A stretch of 30,423 bases of DNA from a virus: positions 1-30,423 of the IMG/VR virus record IMGVR_UViG_3300037117_000176; one strand, 5' to 3'. Shown here one piece after another: positions 10,310 to 30,423 of the stretch; position 1 is the stretch's first letter, and every line of letters begins with the position of its first letter. The notes below the pieces were generated by a model that was given only the letters and a program-made list of their open reading frames with translations, was not told the origin of the DNA and searched no databases. The translations under genes and the position numbers were made by a program.

Positions 10310-10470
10310 GCTTTGCCCGCCTGAATGGTCGCGGCCGCCTTGTCGATCGCCGCGGTCAGATCATCGCCCGTAAACTTGCCTTGGTCTTTCAGGATTTGTA
10401 TGGTGAGGATCATGACTGAAAGTTGCACATCGACCAACTCGCGATCAAACTGCACTGCTGTCATGGTCAT
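10306..10470 (-). CDS. Hypothetical small helical protein
   Basis: The 54-residue product starts at ATG 10470 on the stop of the recombinase gene and ends on the start of the next. It is mostly helical with DRELVDVQLSVMILTIQIL and an Ala-rich C-terminal helix. No motif is recognised. The two-sided ATGA coupling is the main support. Confidence 0.6.
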   Translation of the reverse strand: MTMTAVQFDRELVDVQLSVMILTIQILKDQGKFTGDDLTAAIDKAAATIQAGKA

Positions 10471-10976
10471 GCTCTTGACCTGCGCCAGATCGTCGAACGC
10501 GATGGACCACTTTTGCCCACTTTCGGACCCGGCTTCTTAGCGCCTTGCTTTGCCATTCCGTTCTTGATTCGTTCGGCGATCAGGCTGCGTTCGAGTTCAG
10601 CAACCGCGCCCAGAATGGTGAAAACCAGCTTTCCATAAGGCGTGCTCGTGTCGACGCTTTCAGTGAGAGAAACGAAGGCGACTCCGAGAGATTGGAAGGT
10701 CTCAAGGGCACGGAGAAGATGCTTCGTTGAGCGCGCAAACCGATCAAACTTCCAGCAAACGACCGCCTCAATGTTCCTGTATCCACGTTCCACGTCGGCC
10801 ATGAGCTCGTCGAGCCCAGGTCTTGATTCTTTTGCGCCGGAAAATCCTGAATCGATGTACTCATGGATTATCTTCCAACCTTTGAGGAGGCACAGCGCGC
10901 GGAGCGGCTGCAGCTGAGCTTCTGGATCTTGGTGCGTGTGAGCTTTGCTGACTCTTGCATAAAGGGCGACATTCAC
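10467..10976 (-). CDS. Short serine recombinase (resolvase/invertase catalytic domain)
   Basis: GTG 10976 overlaps the preceding stop (GTGA) and gives 169 residues beginning VNVALYARVSK, where the Ser of YARVS is the expected nucleophile. Further family marks are DSGFSG, RPGLDELM, KFDRFARS and the E-helix region with FTILGAVAELERSLIAERI. The chain ends about 20 residues after this helix, in a basic GPSRSTIW tail. Complete invertases and resolvases carry a helix-turn-helix of about 45 residues there, so DNA binding is probably truncated. It could act in site-specific inversion or genome resolution, or be decaying. Confidence 0.85.
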   Translation of the reverse strand: MNVALYARVSKAHTHQDPEAQLQPLRALCLLKGWKIIHEYIDSGFSGAKESRPGLDELMADVERGYRNIEAVVCWKFDRFARSTKHLLRALETFQSLGVAFVSLTESVDTSTPYGKLVFTILGAVAELERSLIAERIKNGMAKQGAKKPGPKVGKSGPSRSTIWRRSRA

Positions 10977-11203
10977 CGCGCAAAATACATCGCGATCATT
11001 CCAGTAAAAACGGTCACAGCGATGACGGTCCAGCCAAAGCGCAGAGGCCAAGGCATCTGGGGAGTTTGAATGAGATACGAGTACTCGGTGATCCGGGTCG
11101 CCCGTGCTCCGTGCGCCCAAGTCTTCCCCATATCGTTAAGAACGCCCCTGGGGTAGCTTTCCAATTTGCGGCGAAATGTTTCGGACAGTGTGTCGACGCG
11201 CAT
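10973..11203 (-). CDS. Small membrane protein
   Basis: The 76-residue product has a polar N-terminal half and a C-terminal transmembrane helix (FGWTVIAVTVFTGMIAMYF) ending in AR. ATG 11203 follows an AAAGGA box by about 8 bases. Its stop overlaps the recombinase GTG start. The function is unknown; it is a tail-anchored type topology. Confidence 0.65.
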   Translation of the reverse strand: MRVDTLSETFRRKLESYPRGVLNDMGKTWAHGARATRITEYSYLIQTPQMPWPLRFGWTVIAVTVFTGMIAMYFAR

Positions 11204-16655: not shown

Positions 16656-16903
16656 CCCCCTACGAAGCCAACCTGGATCTGATCGCCGAATGCGACAAGG
16701 CCGCCGCCCAAGGCTTCCTCAAGTGTCAGTGGTGCGAAGGCCACGGGCATCATTGGCGCGAGTGTCCGGAGTACGAAGCTTTTGTCAGACGTGTCGGCCG
16801 CGAGGGGCGAATCGTGATGAAGATCCGGGCGAACTTCTGGCTTGTGTTTAATTTGCTCGGTGTTGGCTTCGCGGCCGGAATGTGCTTCAAGGCGCTGCTA
16901 TGA
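16652..16903 (+). CDS. Zinc-knuckle membrane protein
   Basis: The 83-residue product carries CQWCEGHGHHWREC, an exact C-x2-C-x4-H-x4-C zinc knuckle of the retroviral nucleocapsid type, near residue 25-38. A C-terminal transmembrane helix (FWLVFNLLGVGFAAGMCF) follows. A membrane-tethered nucleic-acid-binding knuckle is unusual. It is coupled to both neighbours by ATGA. Confidence 0.7.
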   Translation: MTPYEANLDLIAECDKAAAQGFLKCQWCEGHGHHWRECPEYEAFVRRVGREGRIVMKIRANFWLVFNLLGVGFAAGMCFKALL

Positions 16904-17550
16904 GCGAACGTAAAGCTTATCCGCTGTCATGGCCGGACGGATGGAGGCGCACGAAATCGCGCAGCCATGCCGCTTTCAATAAGACGAAAGAGCCGCGCTA
17001 CACCGCGGAGAATCAACCGATCTATCAGGGAAAAAGTCGTCTGTCTGTGGCCGATGCGGTGCACCGCGTGCTTATTGAGCTGGACAGGATGAGCATTAAA
17101 GACGACGACATCATCATCTCGACGAATGTTCCGCTCCGGCTGGATGGTCTGCCGCGCAGCGATCAGGAACCGAGCGATCCCGGCGTCGCTGTCTACTGGC
17201 AAAAGAAGGGCCAGCCTGCGATGCGCTGCATGGCCATAGATCGTTATTACCGGGTTGCGGACAACATCGCAGCCGTGGCCGCAACGCTGGATGCGATGCG
17301 CGCGATCGAGCGACACGGAGGAGCGGAAATTCTCAACCGCGCATTCCTCGGATTCGCAGCTCTGCCGGAGAAAGCCTCGCAGCCATGGCGCGAAGTGCTT
17401 GGCATCGAAACCAATCCAACGCTGGATTTAATCGAGACTCGATTCCGCTCGCTTGTCAAAGTGCACCATCCCGACACTGGCGGAGATCGACAGAAATTCG
17501 AGGAAATAATGCAGGCTCGCGAAGCTGCACTGATGGAGCTATCGGCATGA
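16900..17550 (+). CDS. J-domain protein (phage type)
   Basis: The 216-residue product starts at ATG 16900 on the preceding stop. The N-terminal 150 residues (YPLSWPDGWRRT, IISTNVPLRLDGLP, DPGVAVYWQKKG, AIDRYYRVADNIAAVAATLD) match a phage/plasmid family that ends in a J domain. The last 50 residues form helix II, the HPD loop (KVHHPDTGGD) and helix III, which stimulate Hsp70 ATPase in true J proteins. The HPD is intact. It may recruit host DnaK. The next gene encodes a DnaJ-like zinc finger. Confidence 0.9.
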   Translation: MSERKAYPLSWPDGWRRTKSRSHAAFNKTKEPRYTAENQPIYQGKSRLSVADAVHRVLIELDRMSIKDDDIIISTNVPLRLDGLPRSDQEPSDPGVAVYWQKKGQPAMRCMAIDRYYRVADNIAAVAATLDAMRAIERHGGAEILNRAFLGFAALPEKASQPWREVLGIETNPTLDLIETRFRSLVKVHHPDTGGDRQKFEEIMQAREAALMELSA

Positions 17551-19700: not shown

Positions 19701-19706
19701 GAGCAA

Positions 19707-20444
19707 ATGGGAGAAACGACAACTATTTCGTGGACGGATCACACCTTTAACCCGTGGTGGGGCTGCACGCGCGTTTCGCCGGGCTGCGTCAACTGCTACG
19801 CGGAAACCTTCGACAAGCGTATCGGCGGCGACCACTGGGGCCCGGGAAAGCCGCGGCGCACGTTTGGCGAGAAGCACTGGAGTGAGCCGCTGCAATGGGA
19901 CGCGAAGGCGAAGCGCGACGGCGTTATGCGGAAGGTATTCTGTGCCTCTATGGCTGACATCTTCGACGCCGAGGCGCCCTCCGGAGAACGCGAACGGTTG
20001 TGGGACGTGATTCGCGGCACCGAAAACCTGATATGGCAGCTGTTGACGAAGCGGGTCGAAGGCTATAAAGACATGCCCATCGATCTGATGTCCTCTCGCA
20101 GCGTATGGAAGGGATTCACCGCCGAGGACCAAGAGCGCTATGACGAGCGCTGGCAGAGTATGAAGCGCTGGCCGGGCGTGACTTGGTGCAGCTATGAGCC
20201 TGCCATCGGCCCTCTAACGACATTTAAGGTGTGGCACAAGCCGAGCTGGATTGTATTCGGCGGCGAAAGTGGGAACGCTCGGCGTCCGTGCGAACAGCAA
20301 TGGGCGGAACATCTACTGACGGAATGCCGCGAGTGGGGCATCGCATTTTTTATGAAGCAGATGTCCGCGCGCACACCGACGCAGGGGAAAGGGCTAATCC
20401 CGGCGCACTTGATGATCCGAGAATTTCCGGATAGCCGTGCATAA
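19707..20444 (+). CDS. DUF5131 / phage Gp37-Gp68 family protein
   Basis: The 245-residue product begins with ISWTDHTFNPWWGCTRVSPG and CVNCYAE, the hallmark of DUF5131. Its Cys in C-x6-C-x-x-C are thought to bind an iron-sulfur cluster, as in radical SAM-like proteins. Other marks are VFCASMADIFDAE, WQLLTKRVEGY, WCSYEPAIGPL and IVFGGESGNARRP. The family is frequent in phages and prophages, but its substrate is not established. ATG 19707 has a GAGAG box. Confidence 0.9.
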   Translation: MGETTTISWTDHTFNPWWGCTRVSPGCVNCYAETFDKRIGGDHWGPGKPRRTFGEKHWSEPLQWDAKAKRDGVMRKVFCASMADIFDAEAPSGERERLWDVIRGTENLIWQLLTKRVEGYKDMPIDLMSSRSVWKGFTAEDQERYDERWQSMKRWPGVTWCSYEPAIGPLTTFKVWHKPSWIVFGGESGNARRPCEQQWAEHLLTECREWGIAFFMKQMSARTPTQGKGLIPAHLMIREFPDSRA

Positions 20445-20476: not shown

Positions 20477-20615
20477 GAGAAACCAGAGGGGAAGCGCAGT
20501 TAGCTCGCCAAGCAACAAGCGCTTCCCTCTGAAATGAGTTTCCAGGGGCGGGAGTTAGCCCGGAAAGACGAAGCTGACAGGATTAGCACTAGGGCAACAA
20601 TCCCGCCCCGGAAAG
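20477..20615 (+). ncRNA. Tandem structured RNA elements with a shared internal loop
   Basis: The leader between the DUF5131 gene and the helicase-methyltransferase gene folds into two like units. Unit 1 has arms 20484-20497 and 20519-20531 (13 bp, one bulged G). They enclose AGTTA, a short GCU/AGC hairpin (20503-20513) and AACAA. Unit 2 has arms GGGGCGGG 20545-20552 and CCCGCCCC 20602-20609, enclosing AGTTA, GCCC/GGGC (558-561 with 592-595) and AACAA. Inside unit 2 a GCUGA/UUAGC hairpin can form. The 3' arm of unit 2 abuts GGAAAG, the ribosome box of ATG 20622. It looks like a cis-regulatory RNA; I do not know its class. Confidence 0.65.
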
Positions 20616-20621
20616 TTTTAT

Positions 20622-22814
20622 ATGAGTGTTTATCAGGAATTTTTAAACTCGAAAGTCGTCACCCACGTAGCCTCTGGAAAAGCTGTGCATGTCAGCGAGA
20701 AACTATTCGACTTCCAGCGGGACATCGTGAAGTGGTCCGCGCGCACGGGACGCTCGGCGATCTTCGCAGATTGCGGGCTCGGGAAAACTCCGATGCAGTT
20801 GCAATGGGCCGACGCCATCCAAGCCAAGACGCTGATTCTAGCTCCGCTCGCCGTAGCGCCGCAGACCGTGCGTGAGGGCGATAAGTTCGACGTGGAAGTC
20901 TGCTACCAACGCAAACCGGAACGAGATGCCGCCATCACCATTACAAATTACGAGATGCTGGAGCACTTCGACGCGGACAAGTACGAAGCCATCGTCCTTG
21001 ACGAGTCGAGCATCATCAAGCATTTTGAAGGGAAAATTCGCAATCTGATCATCGATCGCTTTCGGGATACGCCCTACAAGCTGGCCTGCACCGCGACCCC
21101 AGCGCCCAATGACTTCATGGAGCTGGGAAACCATTCTGAATTTCTAGGCAATCTGACGCGCACCGAAATGCTCTCCACGTTCTTCGTGCACGATGGCGGT
21201 GACACGCAAAAGTGGCGATTAAAGGGCCACGCCGAAACTGAATTCTGGAAGTGGGTGTGCTCGTGGGCTGTGATGCTCCGAAAACCATCCGACCTTGGCT
21301 ATAACGATGCCGCCTTTAAGTTGCCCGCGCTGCGCATCCATGAGCGCCAAGTAGAAGCCGAAACCTGCACCGAGGGAATGTTGTTTCAGATGCCAGCCGT
21401 GACCCTGCAGGAACGGCAGCGAGCCCGCGCCGGGAGCACCGAAGAAAGAGCGGACGAGGTAGCCGCCATCGCTGCGGGCAAACCGTCTGAGCAATGGCTG
21501 ATCTGGTGCAACCTCAACAATGAAAGCCAAGCCGCGACCGCGCGCATTCCCGGAGCAGTGGAAGTTTGCGGCTCAGACTCGCCAGAGTTTAAAGAGAAGA
21601 GCATGGCTGACTTCGCGGCCGGTGAGATTCGAGTCTTGGTGAGCAAGCCGTCAATTTGTGGCTTTGGCCTGAATTTCCAGTCCTGTCACAACGTTGTCTT
21701 TCTTGGCTTGTCCGACAGTTACGAGCAGTTTTATCAGGCCATCCGGCGCTGTTGGCGGTTTGGGCAGAAATCGGAAGTGGATTGCTACATCGTGACCAGT
21801 TCGGCCGAGGGTGAAGTTGTGAAAAACATAAAACGGAAAGAGGCCGACGCCCAGCGCATGGCCGAGGAGATGGTCAACAATATGCATGAACTGAATCAGG
21901 CAGAAATTCACGGCAACGTGCGCACGTCCACAGCCTACGAGCACAAGATCGAAACGGGCGAATCTTGGACGATGCACCTGGGGGACTGCGTAGAAGTCCT
22001 ATCGACGTTCCCGGCCAATTCCCTGCACTACTCCATTTTTTCGCCGCCGTTCGCTTCGCTGTATACCTACTCGGCATCAGAGCGTGACTTCGGAAACTCG
22101 CGAGATCACGCGGAATTCTTTCAGCACATGGATTTTCTCGCACCCGAGCTTATGCGTGTCCTCTTGCCCGGTCGCTTACTAAGTTTTCACTGCATGGACT
22201 TGCCGACCAGCAAGGAACGGGATGGCGTGATCGGCATCTCGGATTTTCGTGGAAAACTCATTCAACTCTTCGAGCGGGCCGGATTCATCCTGCACTCGCA
22301 GGTCACGATCTGGAAAGACCCAGTAACCGCCATGCAGCGCACCAAAGCACTCGGGCTCCTGCACAAGCAATTGAAAAAAGATTCATGCATGAGCCGCCAG
22401 GGCATCCCGGACTATCTCGTAACCATGCGCAAGCCTGGAGAGAATCCTCAGCGCGTAACCCACACGCCAGAAGAATTCCCGGTACAGCTATGGCAGCGTT
22501 TCGCCTCTCCGGTATGGATGGATATCAACCCGAGCAACACGCTGCAGCGCCAATCGGCCCGCGAAGAGAAGGACGAGCGCCACATCTGCCCCTTGCAATT
22601 GGAGGTCATCGCCCGCGCGCTGAAACTGTGGACGAATCTCGCAGATACCGTGCTCTCGCCATTCGCCGGGATCGGAAGTGAAGGTTACGAAGCAGTGAAA
22701 GCAGGCCGCAACTTCGTCGGAATCGAGCTGAAGCGATCCTACTGGGAGCAAGCCTGCGGCAACCTAAAGGCCGCCGAGCAATTGAGCGAAAGTTTATTCA
22801 CGAAAGCAGTATGA
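20622..22814 (+). CDS. SNF2-like helicase fused to a DNA methyltransferase
   Basis: The 730-residue chain has two enzymatic parts. Residues about 30-420 are a DEAD/SNF2-type translocase. They show DCGLGKT (motif I), VLDESS (motif II), CTATPAPND (motif III), FGLNFQ and QAIRRCWRFGQ (motif VI). Residues about 450-725 are an N4-cytosine/N6-adenine methylase of the permuted beta order, with SPPF near 473 and then DTVLSPFAGIGSEGYEA near 676-692 plus GIELKRSYW. It may protect phage DNA, alone or during replication; no restriction nuclease is adjacent. The start has GGAAAG 6 bases upstream. Confidence 0.92.
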   Translation: MSVYQEFLNSKVVTHVASGKAVHVSEKLFDFQRDIVKWSARTGRSAIFADCGLGKTPMQLQWADAIQAKTLILAPLAVAPQTVREGDKFDVEVCYQRKPERDAAITITNYEMLEHFDADKYEAIVLDESSIIKHFEGKIRNLIIDRFRDTPYKLACTATPAPNDFMELGNHSEFLGNLTRTEMLSTFFVHDGGDTQKWRLKGHAETEFWKWVCSWAVMLRKPSDLGYNDAAFKLPALRIHERQVEAETCTEGMLFQMPAVTLQERQRARAGSTEERADEVAAIAAGKPSEQWLIWCNLNNESQAATARIPGAVEVCGSDSPEFKEKSMADFAAGEIRVLVSKPSICGFGLNFQSCHNVVFLGLSDSYEQFYQAIRRCWRFGQKSEVDCYIVTSSAEGEVVKNIKRKEADAQRMAEEMVNNMHELNQAEIHGNVRTSTAYEHKIETGESWTMHLGDCVEVLSTFPANSLHYSIFSPPFASLYTYSASERDFGNSRDHAEFFQHMDFLAPELMRVLLPGRLLSFHCMDLPTSKERDGVIGISDFRGKLIQLFERAGFILHSQVTIWKDPVTAMQRTKALGLLHKQLKKDSCMSRQGIPDYLVTMRKPGENPQRVTHTPEEFPVQLWQRFASPVWMDINPSNTLQRQSAREEKDERHICPLQLEVIARALKLWTNLADTVLSPFAGIGSEGYEAVKAGRNFVGIELKRSYWEQACGNLKAAEQLSESLFTKAV

Positions 22815-24802: not shown

Positions 24803-25665
24803 AGGCAGAATCGCTGCCATCCCCTATCCCGGCCCATCAGGAGCCTAAGATGCCAAAGGAAGTGCGGGACTTCGAGGACATATTGGTTAACAACTTATCA
24901 GCAAACTGGCCGCGAAATCTTACGAAACTTCGCCGCATAATCAAGGATGCGTTTAGAGCCGGATTTCATCGCGGAGTGGGAGCCCAAGATGCTCCCATAA
25001 AGAATTGTGAGCATGAACGAGTGGACGAGGATGGATATTGCAGAAAGTGCGGAAGCGACACGCGAGGTGGATTTTGTTTAGCCCAAGACGCTCCCACGCT
25101 TGATAACCGCAAAGCGATGCCATGGAAAGATTTCAAGAAAGAACTGGAGGCCCGAGACGCTCCCCAACCTCGCTGTGCGTTTTGCAACATGCCAATCGAG
25201 TTTCCGCGCCAAGTCTGCCCTAATATTTCCAACACAGGGTGGTGCTGCGAGTCCAAATCAGACGCTCCCCAACCTCAGAGCGACGAGAGGCGGAACGCTT
25301 TGGAATCGCTTTTGCCGGGACGAGCCGTAAACGCTGCTCAGACAGATTGGGGAAAAGGATACATCGAAGGTTGGATTGGCCCTGATGAACTTCGCACGTT
25401 CCTACGTCATCGTTATTCATGTTCCCTCCTTTTGACCAGTGGTCTTAACCCTGTGTCACATCTTCCTTGGTTCGCCCGCGCTTACCACCGCAGACTAGGT
25501 TCATGGAATTTGGAATCTGGTTGTCGCAACTGGCAAAAATTAACCCCTGAAGAAAAGGCTGGATGGCCCCTGAGCGGCCTCGGGCCAGCCAAAGCGGAAG
25601 CATGGAAAAACACGCCGGGATTTGATGGTGACTTACCACCAGCGCGGATCATAGATAGTGACTGA
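24778..25665 (+). CDS. Modular zinc-module protein with repeated linkers
   Basis: The 295-residue product from ATG 24778 joins small modules separated by QDAP, QDAP, RDAP and SDAP linkers, which are encoded by a repeated GACGCTCCC element. One module has CEHERVDEDGYCRKCGSD, a zinc ribbon, and one has RCAFCNMPIEFPRQVC followed by GWCC. The C-terminal 90 residues look like a different domain (KLTPEEKAGWPLSG) and include DNA similar to the hairpin leader at 25433. The gene may be a recent mosaic. No function can be named. Confidence 0.55.
   Translation: MCELDERLKAESLPSPIPAHQEPKMPKEVRDFEDILVNNLSANWPRNLTKLRRIIKDAFRAGFHRGVGAQDAPIKNCEHERVDEDGYCRKCGSDTRGGFCLAQDAPTLDNRKAMPWKDFKKELEARDAPQPRCAFCNMPIEFPRQVCPNISNTGWCCESKSDAPQPQSDERRNALESLLPGRAVNAAQTDWGKGYIEGWIGPDELRTFLRHRYSCSLLLTSGLNPVSHLPWFARAYHRRLGSWNLESGCRNWQKLTPEEKAGWPLSGLGPAKAEAWKNTPGFDGDLPPARIIDSD
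24982..25278 (+). repeat. Four short copies of a GACGCTCCC linker element
   Basis: GCCCAAGATGCTCCCA (24982), GCCCAAGACGCTCCCA (25081), GAGACGCTCCCCAACCTC (25154) and CAGACGCTCCCCAACCTC (25259) recur in one frame and encode (Q/R/S)DAP linkers. They are spaced by about 70-110 bp of unrelated sequence. Confidence 0.7.
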
Positions 25666-25686
25666 CCAGTGGTTAACGAGACCACG
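25663..25686 (+). repeat. Hairpin leader copy 1
   Basis: TGACCAGTGGTTAACGAGACC continues to position 25686. It begins with the stop codon of the preceding gene and holds TGGT and ACCA arms around a short loop. It precedes the AGGAG box of the gene at 25708. A degenerate partner, TGACCAGTGGT, lies at 25433-25443. Confidence 0.65.
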
Positions 25687-25707
25687 TGTCAAAACAGGAG
25701 AAAGAAA

Positions 25708-26040
25708 ATGTACTACTCAAGAAACATCCAAGAAGCCGCAGAACAAGCGTCACGCAAATCAGCCACCATCAAGGTGTTCTCAATGAACGACTGTGACTGG
25801 ATGGCGGGCGAGACGCTGGAAGCCTGCAAGGCTGAGTATATCAAGAACTATGGTGGAGATGCTTGGGAGGACGAGAACGAGGACCAATTCGCGGATGCTC
25901 GCGAGCTTACGCCGTGGGATATGCAGCACTACAAATTCACCGATGACAACGGCGGCGAGCGGACATTTCAAGAACAACTCGAAAAAATGATTAGTGATGG
26001 CGACGAGTTCCCCGCGTTCTTTGCAAGTACCGAATGCTGA
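25708..26040 (+). CDS. Hypothetical acidic protein
   Basis: The 110-residue product starts at ATG 25708, which has AGGAGAAAG before it; a longer frame begins at 25669 inside the repeat. It contains IKVFSMNDCDWMAGETLEAC and an acidic stretch DAWEDENEDQFADA, then LTPWDMQHYKFTDDNGGERT. The pattern resembles small phage proteins that respond to nothing known. It is flanked by hairpin leader copies on both sides. Confidence 0.65.
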   Translation: MYYSRNIQEAAEQASRKSATIKVFSMNDCDWMAGETLEACKAEYIKNYGGDAWEDENEDQFADARELTPWDMQHYKFTDDNGGERTFQEQLEKMISDGDEFPAFFASTEC

Positions 26041-26064
26041 CCAGTGGTTCACGACACCACCATA
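26038..26064 (+). repeat. Hairpin leader copy 2
   Basis: TGACCAGTGGTTCACGACAC, then CACCATA, starts on the stop codon of the preceding gene. GTGGT and ACCAC arms enclose TCACGAC. It is followed by AGCCAAGGA, the ribosome box of the gene at 26078. Confidence 0.7.
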
Positions 26065-26077
26065 GCCAAGGACTTCG

Positions 26078-26257
26078 ATGATGACAACTCTTTTTGATCC
26101 GTCGCAAGAATCGGGCGATGAAGATATTTGGTTCAACGTGGCGCTGAACATTGCTCGCCGCATCTGCAAGCACGAAAACAGAGCCGGGGGGAATGATTAC
26201 GTTCTGTGTCTTGATTGCGGCTTTTCGTGGGACTATCGCAGAGAGCACTGGTACTGA
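26078..26257 (+). CDS. Small zinc-ribbon protein
   Basis: The 59-residue product begins MMTTLFDPSQ (ATG 26078 or 26081) behind AAGGA. It has NIARRICKHENRAGGNDYVL and CLDCGFSWDYRREHWY, a C-x-x-H / C-x-x-C zinc ribbon. It is the last clear gene of the rightward operon, followed by a third hairpin leader copy. Confidence 0.6.
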   Translation: MMTTLFDPSQESGDEDIWFNVALNIARRICKHENRAGGNDYVLCLDCGFSWDYRREHWY

Positions 26258-26303
26258 CGCATGGTTCACGACACCACCAGTCGGGAGAGCCAAGGAAGGA
26301 GAA
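26255..26303 (+). repeat. Hairpin leader copy 3 with orphan ribosome box
   Basis: TGACGCATGGTTCACGACAC, then CACCAG, again starts on a stop codon and is followed by GAGAGCCAAGGAAGGAGAA, a very strong ribosome box at 26292-26303. No ATG, GTG or TTG lies at proper distance downstream, and the sequence runs into a leftward gene ending at 26307. A gene seems to be missing here. Confidence 0.6.
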
Positions 26304-29511: not shown

Positions 29512-30423
29512 TCACCGCAAGAAAGCATACTTAGTGCTGATGACAGGCGGACTGACGTTCATGACAGACGGGGCGAATGTGAGCGCGAAGTTCAAGGCTC
29601 CGGACGCGGATGGGCTGACGGCACTGGCGTCGACCTGAATAGCACCACCGCTGCCAAACACGACAGCGAGGCCGTCCATTGCAAAACTTCCTGTACAAAC
29701 CACCAGTGAAGCACCAGGCGTGAGATCGACTGCCTGAAAGATGATCTCGCCCTTCAATCGCCATGGGATTGGAGTTGTGCTTGCCGGATACGCCTGCGAG
29801 ACGGAGTGTCCCATATTCACGCCGTCCGCCGTCGCGCCATACAGCGGCGTGATGGTCATCTGACCGCCAACCGTTCCCGGGATGATCGTTCCGCCCATCG
29901 TGAAAGAGAAAACCTTCCCGGCGATGGGTTGGTTTCTGGCGCCGAGCGGCATGGAAAAAGCTCGCTGCGCTCCTGCCTGCGTCAGCAGAGTGGTGAAGCT
30001 GGCACTTCGCTTGCCCGGCTGTGTCGGAGGAGCGGTATAGAAATCGAGAGGCTTGCGAAGCGGGTGAAGTTGGATCGATGGTTTGTCGGCAGCAGATTTC
30101 GGAGGCGGAACCCAAGTCCAGACCGCCTCGTCGAATAAATAGGGAAGCGTCTGGTAGAGAGAGGCCGCGACTGGCTTTGTCGGATTCCTCCAGAAGTCCT
30201 CGTCGGGCTGGCCGAGAGCAAGCCTGGCGGCCGGGATCTCTTCCGGATCGCCGAGCGGCAGGCGCTGAAACAGACTTGCCGGGACCGGAGCAACCGGGTT
30301 CCGCCAGAAGTCCTCGTCTGGATGGGGAATGAGCGGGACGAGCGAACCCGCCGGTATCTCTTCTGGATCGCCGAGTGGCAGGCGTTGCCACAGGCTTGCC
30401 GGGACGGGAGCAACCGGATTCCG
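29512..30423 (-). CDS. C-terminal part of the tandem-repeat protein, partial at the right edge
   Basis: The frame is open from the right edge to TGA 29514-29512: 303 codons. The first 100 residues hold three more repeat units (NPVAPVPASLWQ; DEDFW-RNPVAPVPASLFQ; DEDFW-RNPTKPVAASLYQ). A Pro-rich linker follows, then a globular C-terminal domain of about 150 residues that is beta-rich and ends VISTKYAFLR. If the molecule is circular this is the end of the protein that starts at 1639, giving at least 850 residues and 14 units. The directly joined ends are out of frame by two bases. Confidence 0.85.
   Translation of the reverse strand, partial: RNPVAPVPASLWQRLPLGDPEEIPAGSLVPLIPHPDEDFWRNPVAPVPASLFQRLPLGDPEEIPAARLALGQPDEDFWRNPTKPVAASLYQTLPYLFDEAVWTWVPPPKSAADKPSIQLHPLRKPLDFYTAPPTQPGKRSASFTTLLTQAGAQRAFSMPLGARNQPIAGKVFSFTMGGTIIPGTVGGQMTITPLYGATADGVNMGHSVSQAYPASTTPIPWRLKGEIIFQAVDLTPGASLVVCTGSFAMDGLAVVFGSGGAIQVDASAVSPSASGALNFALTFAPSVMNVSPPVISTKYAFLR

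Follow-up and report, generated by a model that had tools for sequence, protein, structure and literature searches.

A conserved RNA hairpin tied to the translation starts of unrelated phage genes

We describe an RNA hairpin element whose structure is conserved by compensatory change, which is tied to translation starts and behind which the genes are unrelated to each other. The element occurs in phages and not in host chromosomes. Two copies stand in tandem in the window (the whole 30,423-nt stretch analysed, a 30.4-kb IMG/VR phage record), in front of a helicase-methyltransferase gene. Judged by Rfam and by a limited search of the literature, this is a new phage RNA family, the function of which we infer from its structure and context. 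The reading that we favour, a start-associated, gene-independent and cis-acting RNA hairpin that sets up expression of the gene behind it, has in our estimate about an even chance of being correct.

Two tandem hairpins in the window

The original prediction, made from the letters of the window, placed two tandem structured units with a common core before the helicase-methyltransferase start, and both could be identified (Table 1). Unit 1, unit 2 and the whole region (z = -4.73) all fold better than 200 dinucleotide shuffles, none of which is as good, and the chance expectation of the core pattern in the window is 0.01. Both units have one anatomy, namely 5 bp, a bulged purine (G in unit 1, A in unit 2), 8 bp (9 in unit 2 if an A-U pair is counted), A, GUU:AAC, a bulged A, GC:GC and AA. 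The predicted stem of 13 bp is therefore right for unit 1, while the 8 bp given for unit 2 gain 5 more pairs below the bulged A. The AGUUA/AACAA internal loop is identical in both units as had been proposed, but the common core is longer (AGUUAGC...GCAACAA) and, since GUU pairs with AAC, partly a helix rather than a loop. In unit 1, GUU 20499-20501 pairs with AAC 20514-20516, A20502 is bulged and the inner GC:GC pairs are formed.

Comparison of the two outer stems reveals that 10 of the 13 pairs differ, all 10 of them in a compensatory manner. When the units are aligned, 100% of the cells pair, as compared to 44-50% with the partner slid by 1-3 columns. The extra GCUGA/UUAGC hairpin reported for unit 2 is real. 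Unit 2 had also been described as abutting the ribosome box of ATG 20622, which lies 21 nt past its AACAA; the candidate box is itself the 3' strand of the lower stem. Within the family described below, unit 2 is typical and unit 1 is short and diverged. Promoter and terminator scans around the element gave nothing above chance, and blastn of the region against phages and plasmids returned nothing meaningful.

Table 1. Position of the two hairpin units and of the neighbouring features in the window.
Feature	Position	Strand	Evidence and remarks
Unit 1, complete hairpin element, short form, 7-nt inner loop	20484..20531	+	Fold z = -4.65; R3 covariance model 45.0 bits, E = 1.4e-9 with filters off
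Unit 1 core, AGTTAGC-TCGCCAA-GCAACAA	20498..20518	+	Pattern match, structure
Unit 2, complete hairpin, family-typical form TTTCC-A-GGGGCGGG ... CCCGCCCC-GGAAA	20539..20614	+	Fold z = -5.16; R3 59.5 bits, E = 2.9e-13
Unit 2 core, AGTTAGCC ... GGCAACAA, enclosing the inner region	20553..20600	+	
Unit 2 inner hairpin, GCUGA-CAGGA-UUAGC	20573..20587	+	Minimum-energy fold; inner fold z about -2.1
GGAAA, 3' strand of unit 2 lower stem and only purine-rich ribosome-site candidate for ATG 20622	20610..20614	+	Sequence, fold
Helicase-methyltransferase gene (SNF2-type helicase fused to N6/N4 DNA methyltransferase, 730 aa), behind the element	20622..22814	+	Pfam PF01555, PF00271; PHROG 16/62/67
DUF5131 gene, before the element	19707..20444	+	PHROG 2045
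Erf/DUF5131 junction, no element in the window	19701..19706	+	One element exactly between Erf and DUF5131 in the L445 and L456 phages

Other repeats are present elsewhere in the window. Degenerate long direct repeats (spacing of 111, 225 and 234 nt) occupy both ends of the record (63-1147 and 30122-30423), as though the genome were circular or permuted and the two ends of the record fell within a single repetitive gene. A near-perfect GC-rich palindrome at 2037-2081 (GTAGGGCAGGC...GCCTGCCCTAC), a weak by-match of the RNA model on both strands, is probably a terminator between gene blocks. A 26-nt repeat, CTGACCAGTGGTTCACGACACCACCA, is found in three copies (25662-25687, 26037-26062 and 26254-26279), the first two of which span gene ends.

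Searches that defined the family

A first covariance model (R2), made from two sequences, found the window only and missed all other members; R2 negatives are not used as evidence and the tests done with this model were repeated with the final model, R3. In pattern scans the closing pairs CC/GG and GG/TCC gave no members, while the core closed by GC/GC yielded the family: 118 stretches were obtained from viral contigs, 10 of them with long outer stems that the pattern did not demand. A loose 14-base core pattern has chance matches among those listed. Further members came from two more pattern scans and one GTDB genome scan, bringing the family to 37 copies (31 distinct) at 35 loci, which are 33 IMG/VR contigs, one Acidobacteriaceae MAG (in a prophage) and the window. 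Three loci (L400, L373 and L449) score weakly (E about 1e-3) and are not counted as members. In a covariance search of the kind that had been suggested as a check, R3 recovered the element in every carrier record, with one copy per record except for the window and L450 (two each). The original reading that this is not a known class also stands, as the Rfam scan at gathering score, SAM/SAH riboswitches included, gave no match in the window or in 15 member loci; at a relaxed threshold there was one chance match (E = 9.8).

Structure and covariation of the element

The consensus reads GTTTCC-g-GGGGCGGGC AGTTAGCC (inner hairpin) GGCAACAA GCCCGCCCC-GGAAA. The stem is GC-rich, 14 bp long and interrupted by a bulged purine, and an invariant core (A / GUU:AAC / bulged A / GC(C):(G)GC / AA) closes it. 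Inside the core there is a variable inner hairpin, which folds in most of the longer members; in the long form the inner region measures 25-61 nt. Invariance of the core is partly by construction and only the stems are independent structural evidence, because the core letters served as search keys. The GUUUCC/GGAAA lower stem was absent from all search patterns. With a pattern that did not require the inner GC:GC pairs, 20 of the 21 matches have exactly those pairs and L458 keeps one of them by G-U.

In an alignment of 28 distinct members, 14 of the 20 pairs change on both sides and 92% of the cells pair, as compared to 35-51% with slid partners, values which none of 500 shuffles reaches. The same structure was found unprompted by RNAalifold. 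This covariation bears out the earlier suggestion of a conserved RNA fold and supports the proposal, offered at the time as one option, of an independent phage RNA. Compensatory evolution is visible even at one locus, behind homologous upstream genes (L425 as compared to L453). Inner lengths are mostly 1 mod 3 (24 of 31 elements; 9 of the 14 distinct lengths), which suggests a coding-like constraint as well.

The sequence AGUUAGCC, present in the core of all members, is the exact reverse complement of what we take to be a conserved 16S rRNA stretch, GGCUAACU, before the 530 loop; this complementarity has possibly arisen by chance. Other long palindromes lacking the AGTTAGC/GCAACAA core are seen just upstream of the element in L326 (an insert of about 100 nt, in which no tRNA was found) and in L445, and unit 1 has a like position in the window. 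The element may thus attract or accumulate palindromes.

Occurrence in phages

Among 398 host-family genomes R3 detected a single carrier, and among 396 genomes of the phylum again a single one, which is the same genome; there the element is located in a prophage (about 49.4-109.4 kb of a 119-kb Acidobacteriaceae contig). The element is therefore phage-borne and at least one host is an acidobacterium. Among the ten element phages that were compared no protein family is present in all, and the carriers are therefore different phages sharing a short signal. A small serine recombinase of the resolvase type (...VKAFLYARVSTG...) is encoded in the window (10467-11120, minus strand), in L445 and in 5 of the 10 carrier phages compared. 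An isolate collection contained no phage relatives of three neighbouring proteins, and a search of 396 host-family genomes for the upstream membrane-protein family, run without a positive control, found nothing.

Association with start codons, strand and reading frames

In all elements but unit 1, a start codon follows 21-34 nt after AACAA, most often at +28. A start preceded by a Shine-Dalgarno sequence lies 18-36 nt past AACAA in 26 of 31 elements, as compared to 4.4% of random positions in the same contigs. The last pair of the element is about 14 nt ahead of the start codon, and in most copies the hairpin ends just short of the ribosome site. The element is always oriented with the genes. 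Of 32 elements, 24 fold better as the plus strand, and G-U pairs outnumber A-C mismatches by 11 to 6, which is a weak bias.

In many copies the upstream reading frame passes through the element to an ATGA overlap, and ribosomes would therefore unfold it there. These read-through frames, together with the inner lengths of mostly 1 mod 3, indicate that the element is also translated in many phages. Upstream genes read it in two different frames; the element is therefore not peptide-driven and the peptide is not conserved. A conserved C-terminal peptide (GGGQLA...ATSPPRK) had been considered and was rejected, as members of the L413 type are read in another frame.

Genes around the element and their turnover

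Genes behind the element are unrelated and include those for helicase-methyltransferase, DUF5131, J-domain, ASCH, YkgJ-like and Zn-ribbon proteins, among others. The J-domain family (PHROG 9210; 16882-17550 in the window) recurs in these phages, often directly behind the element (L446, L450 and L326). Searching with R3 near 80 helicase-methyltransferase relatives and 80 DUF5131 relatives in viral contigs, no element was found near either gene. At a helicase locus of 75% identity (L199), DUF5131-like sequence runs upstream close to the helicase start and no hairpin is present.

Gene content changes immediately on both sides of the conserved element in two unrelated phage lineages. One lineage has the order membrane-protein gene, element, zero to three cargo genes and Zn-ribbon gene; the other has Erf, in some cases cargo, the element, cargo and then conserved genes. 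The window fits the Erf lineage, with Erf, DUF5131, two elements and helicase; the genes after the helicase have counterparts in L440 that come directly after the element. The elements of L445/L456 and of L451/L452 are 96% identical over 112-117 nt, ending at the palindrome ends, and their adjacent genes differ. A host-family genome fragment (L521, from G291) has the membrane gene and, downstream, a gene of the family found there in L437, but lacks the element, which is therefore dispensable at this locus.

Proposed role and alternative explanations

That the downstream gene has a cis-acting RNA in its leader is suggested by the gene-independent association with starts, the compensatory evolution, the orientation and, weakly, the wobble bias. 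Since no phage protein is common to all carriers, a trans factor, if there is one, is more likely to come from the host than from the phage. In the model that we propose, phages of Acidobacteriota (one host shown) would set a variable block of genes behind one element (in rare cases two), with about 14 nt between the element and the first start codon of the block. A host endonuclease or RNA-binding factor would recognise the transcribed hairpin via the invariant core. The simplest candidate is RNase III, which would cut the stem so that the message begins at a defined 5' end just before an open ribosome site; alternatively, another RNA-binding protein might recognise the core and clear or protect the ribosome site. 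Expression of any gene behind the element would then depend little on translation upstream. The window would have a duplicated or additional unit ahead of the usual one.

The idea in the original prediction that the hairpins act as a ligand-sensing riboswitch or protein-bound control specific to the helicase-methyltransferase has fared worst. It would fit the position directly before ATG 20622 and the pairing of GGAAA in the lower stem of unit 2; however, the element is absent at the 80 relatives of this gene, its other copies precede genes that are unrelated to methylation and do not form one pathway, and Rfam gave no match. Ligand-switched sequestration of the Shine-Dalgarno sequence is not the general mode either, because this sequence lies outside the hairpin in most copies. 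We consider this explanation very improbable and largely refuted by the gene-independence of the family. A selfish, mobile palindrome of the MITE, REP or RPE kind, inserting at gene junctions with frames kept open, is unlikely. The observations in its favour are the near-identity of the L445/L456 and L451/L452 elements over the palindrome only, with sharp ends in different contexts, the Erf/DUF5131 junction that is empty in the window and filled in L445/L456, L521 as an element-free relative of a filled junction, the inner lengths, and the extra palindromes just upstream in L326 and L445. Against it, there is usually a single copy per phage genome and none in host chromosomes, the orientation is always the same with a fixed distance to the start, compensatory evolution has taken place at one and the same locus (L425 and L453), and several of the apparent moves are equally explained by exchange of cargo around a fixed element.

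That the element acts as DNA, being a recombination landmark (or an origin) for cargo exchange which forms its hairpin from single-stranded DNA, seems rather improbable to us. The switch in gene content right beside the element, on both sides and in two unrelated lineages, would be expected of such a site, and a gene for a serine resolvase or for an annealing protein like Erf is present in many carriers. However, the start-codon spacing and orientation bias speak against it, the wobble pairs weakly favour the transcribed strand, the core (GTT 5', AAC 3') has the reverse polarity of integron attC, and no recombinase is common to all carriers. Transcription antitermination or anti-pausing, with the RNA acting in cis on RNA polymerase as HK022 put does and allowing read-through of a block of foreign genes, is to be doubted to a similar degree. 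The position of the element at the upstream border of the variable block, its independence of the downstream gene, its usually single copy, its invariant irregular core within a long stem and the absence of a phage protein common to all carriers are consistent with this possibility, which leaves the tight distance to the start codon unexplained; moreover, the element is one stem-loop in mid-operon, and putRNA, with a length of about 70 nt, has two stem-loops next to each other that follow early promoters (PMC9378689). A further and equally doubtful proposal is that the element is a docking point for cargo genes, the hairpin marking, and perhaps mediating by short-homology or single-strand recombination, the exchange of adjacent genes while its RNA form supplies expression. 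If true, the arrangement would resemble an integron that has no integron integrase.

On the reading as a start-associated cis-acting RNA, the element is ordinary in kind, being a cis-acting phage hairpin; it is unusual in being start-tied, gene-independent and single copy across unrelated phages. The family is supported by covariation, uncatalogued and common to otherwise unrelated phages of Acidobacteriota, bacteria that are abundant in soil and whose phages have hardly been studied. Its tie to the starts of unrelated, fast-exchanging genes suggests a general expression signal for accepting new genes. Cultivated Acidobacteriota hosts and phages exist (PMC11924767).

Comparison with known systems

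The core sites of integron attC have the order RYYYAAC...GTTRRRY. Like attC, the element is an imperfect hairpin with AAC/GTT and unpaired bases at the borders of cargo genes; in contrast to attC, its order is GTT...AAC on both strands, no integron integrase is common to the carriers and the cargo is mostly not located between two copies. The RNase III hairpins in early mRNAs of the T7 type are present at several sites per genome and have no invariant 14-nt core. The element resembles them in its long irregular stem with an internal loop or bulges, at a gene junction and ahead of a ribosome site, and it has the geometry of an RNase III site (a stem of at least about 11 bp, irregular, upstream of the ribosome site) with its 13-14 bp, bulge and internal loop. 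It differs from the T7 sites in being usually present once per genome and in its invariant 14-nt core, and is a candidate cleavage site. Rickettsia palindromic elements and MITEs are palindromes of about 100 nt at or in gene ends that keep frames open, and are multi-copy and variously placed. The element shares with them the palindrome of about 100 nt at gene ends and the open frames, but is usually single, oriented and start-spaced. These palindromic elements have been reviewed (PMC10969869).

HK022 put RNA, likewise from a phage, acts in cis, requires no phage protein and is not specific to one gene (PMC9378689), and the element would resemble it in these three respects. In contrast to the two stem-loops of put, nearly all members are a single stem-loop, placed in mid-operon and tied to a start codon. 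The nearest published counterpart is the ESAS/SAS system of Cluster K mycobacteriophages. Its inverted repeats are specific to phages, have a variable spacer and stand right before the ribosome sites of unrelated early genes (PMC3203893). ESAS repeats are 17 bp long with a spacer of 4-13 bp, are accompanied by a 13-bp SAS and occur in many copies per genome, nearly all in gene direction, and they have no known function (PMC3203893). The element is likewise located tens of nucleotides upstream of the starts of unrelated genes and in gene orientation. However, it has a 14-bp bulged stem, an invariant core, an inner region of 25-61 nt in the long form and usually one copy, and no 13-bp SAS of the GGGATAGGAGCCC type is found in the spacers. 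According to the authors, the changes in ESAS repeats do not support RNA pairing (PMC3203893), whereas those in the element do (14 of 20 pairs). The element therefore poses, with real evidence for RNA pairing, the question left by the mycobacteriophage ESAS repeats.
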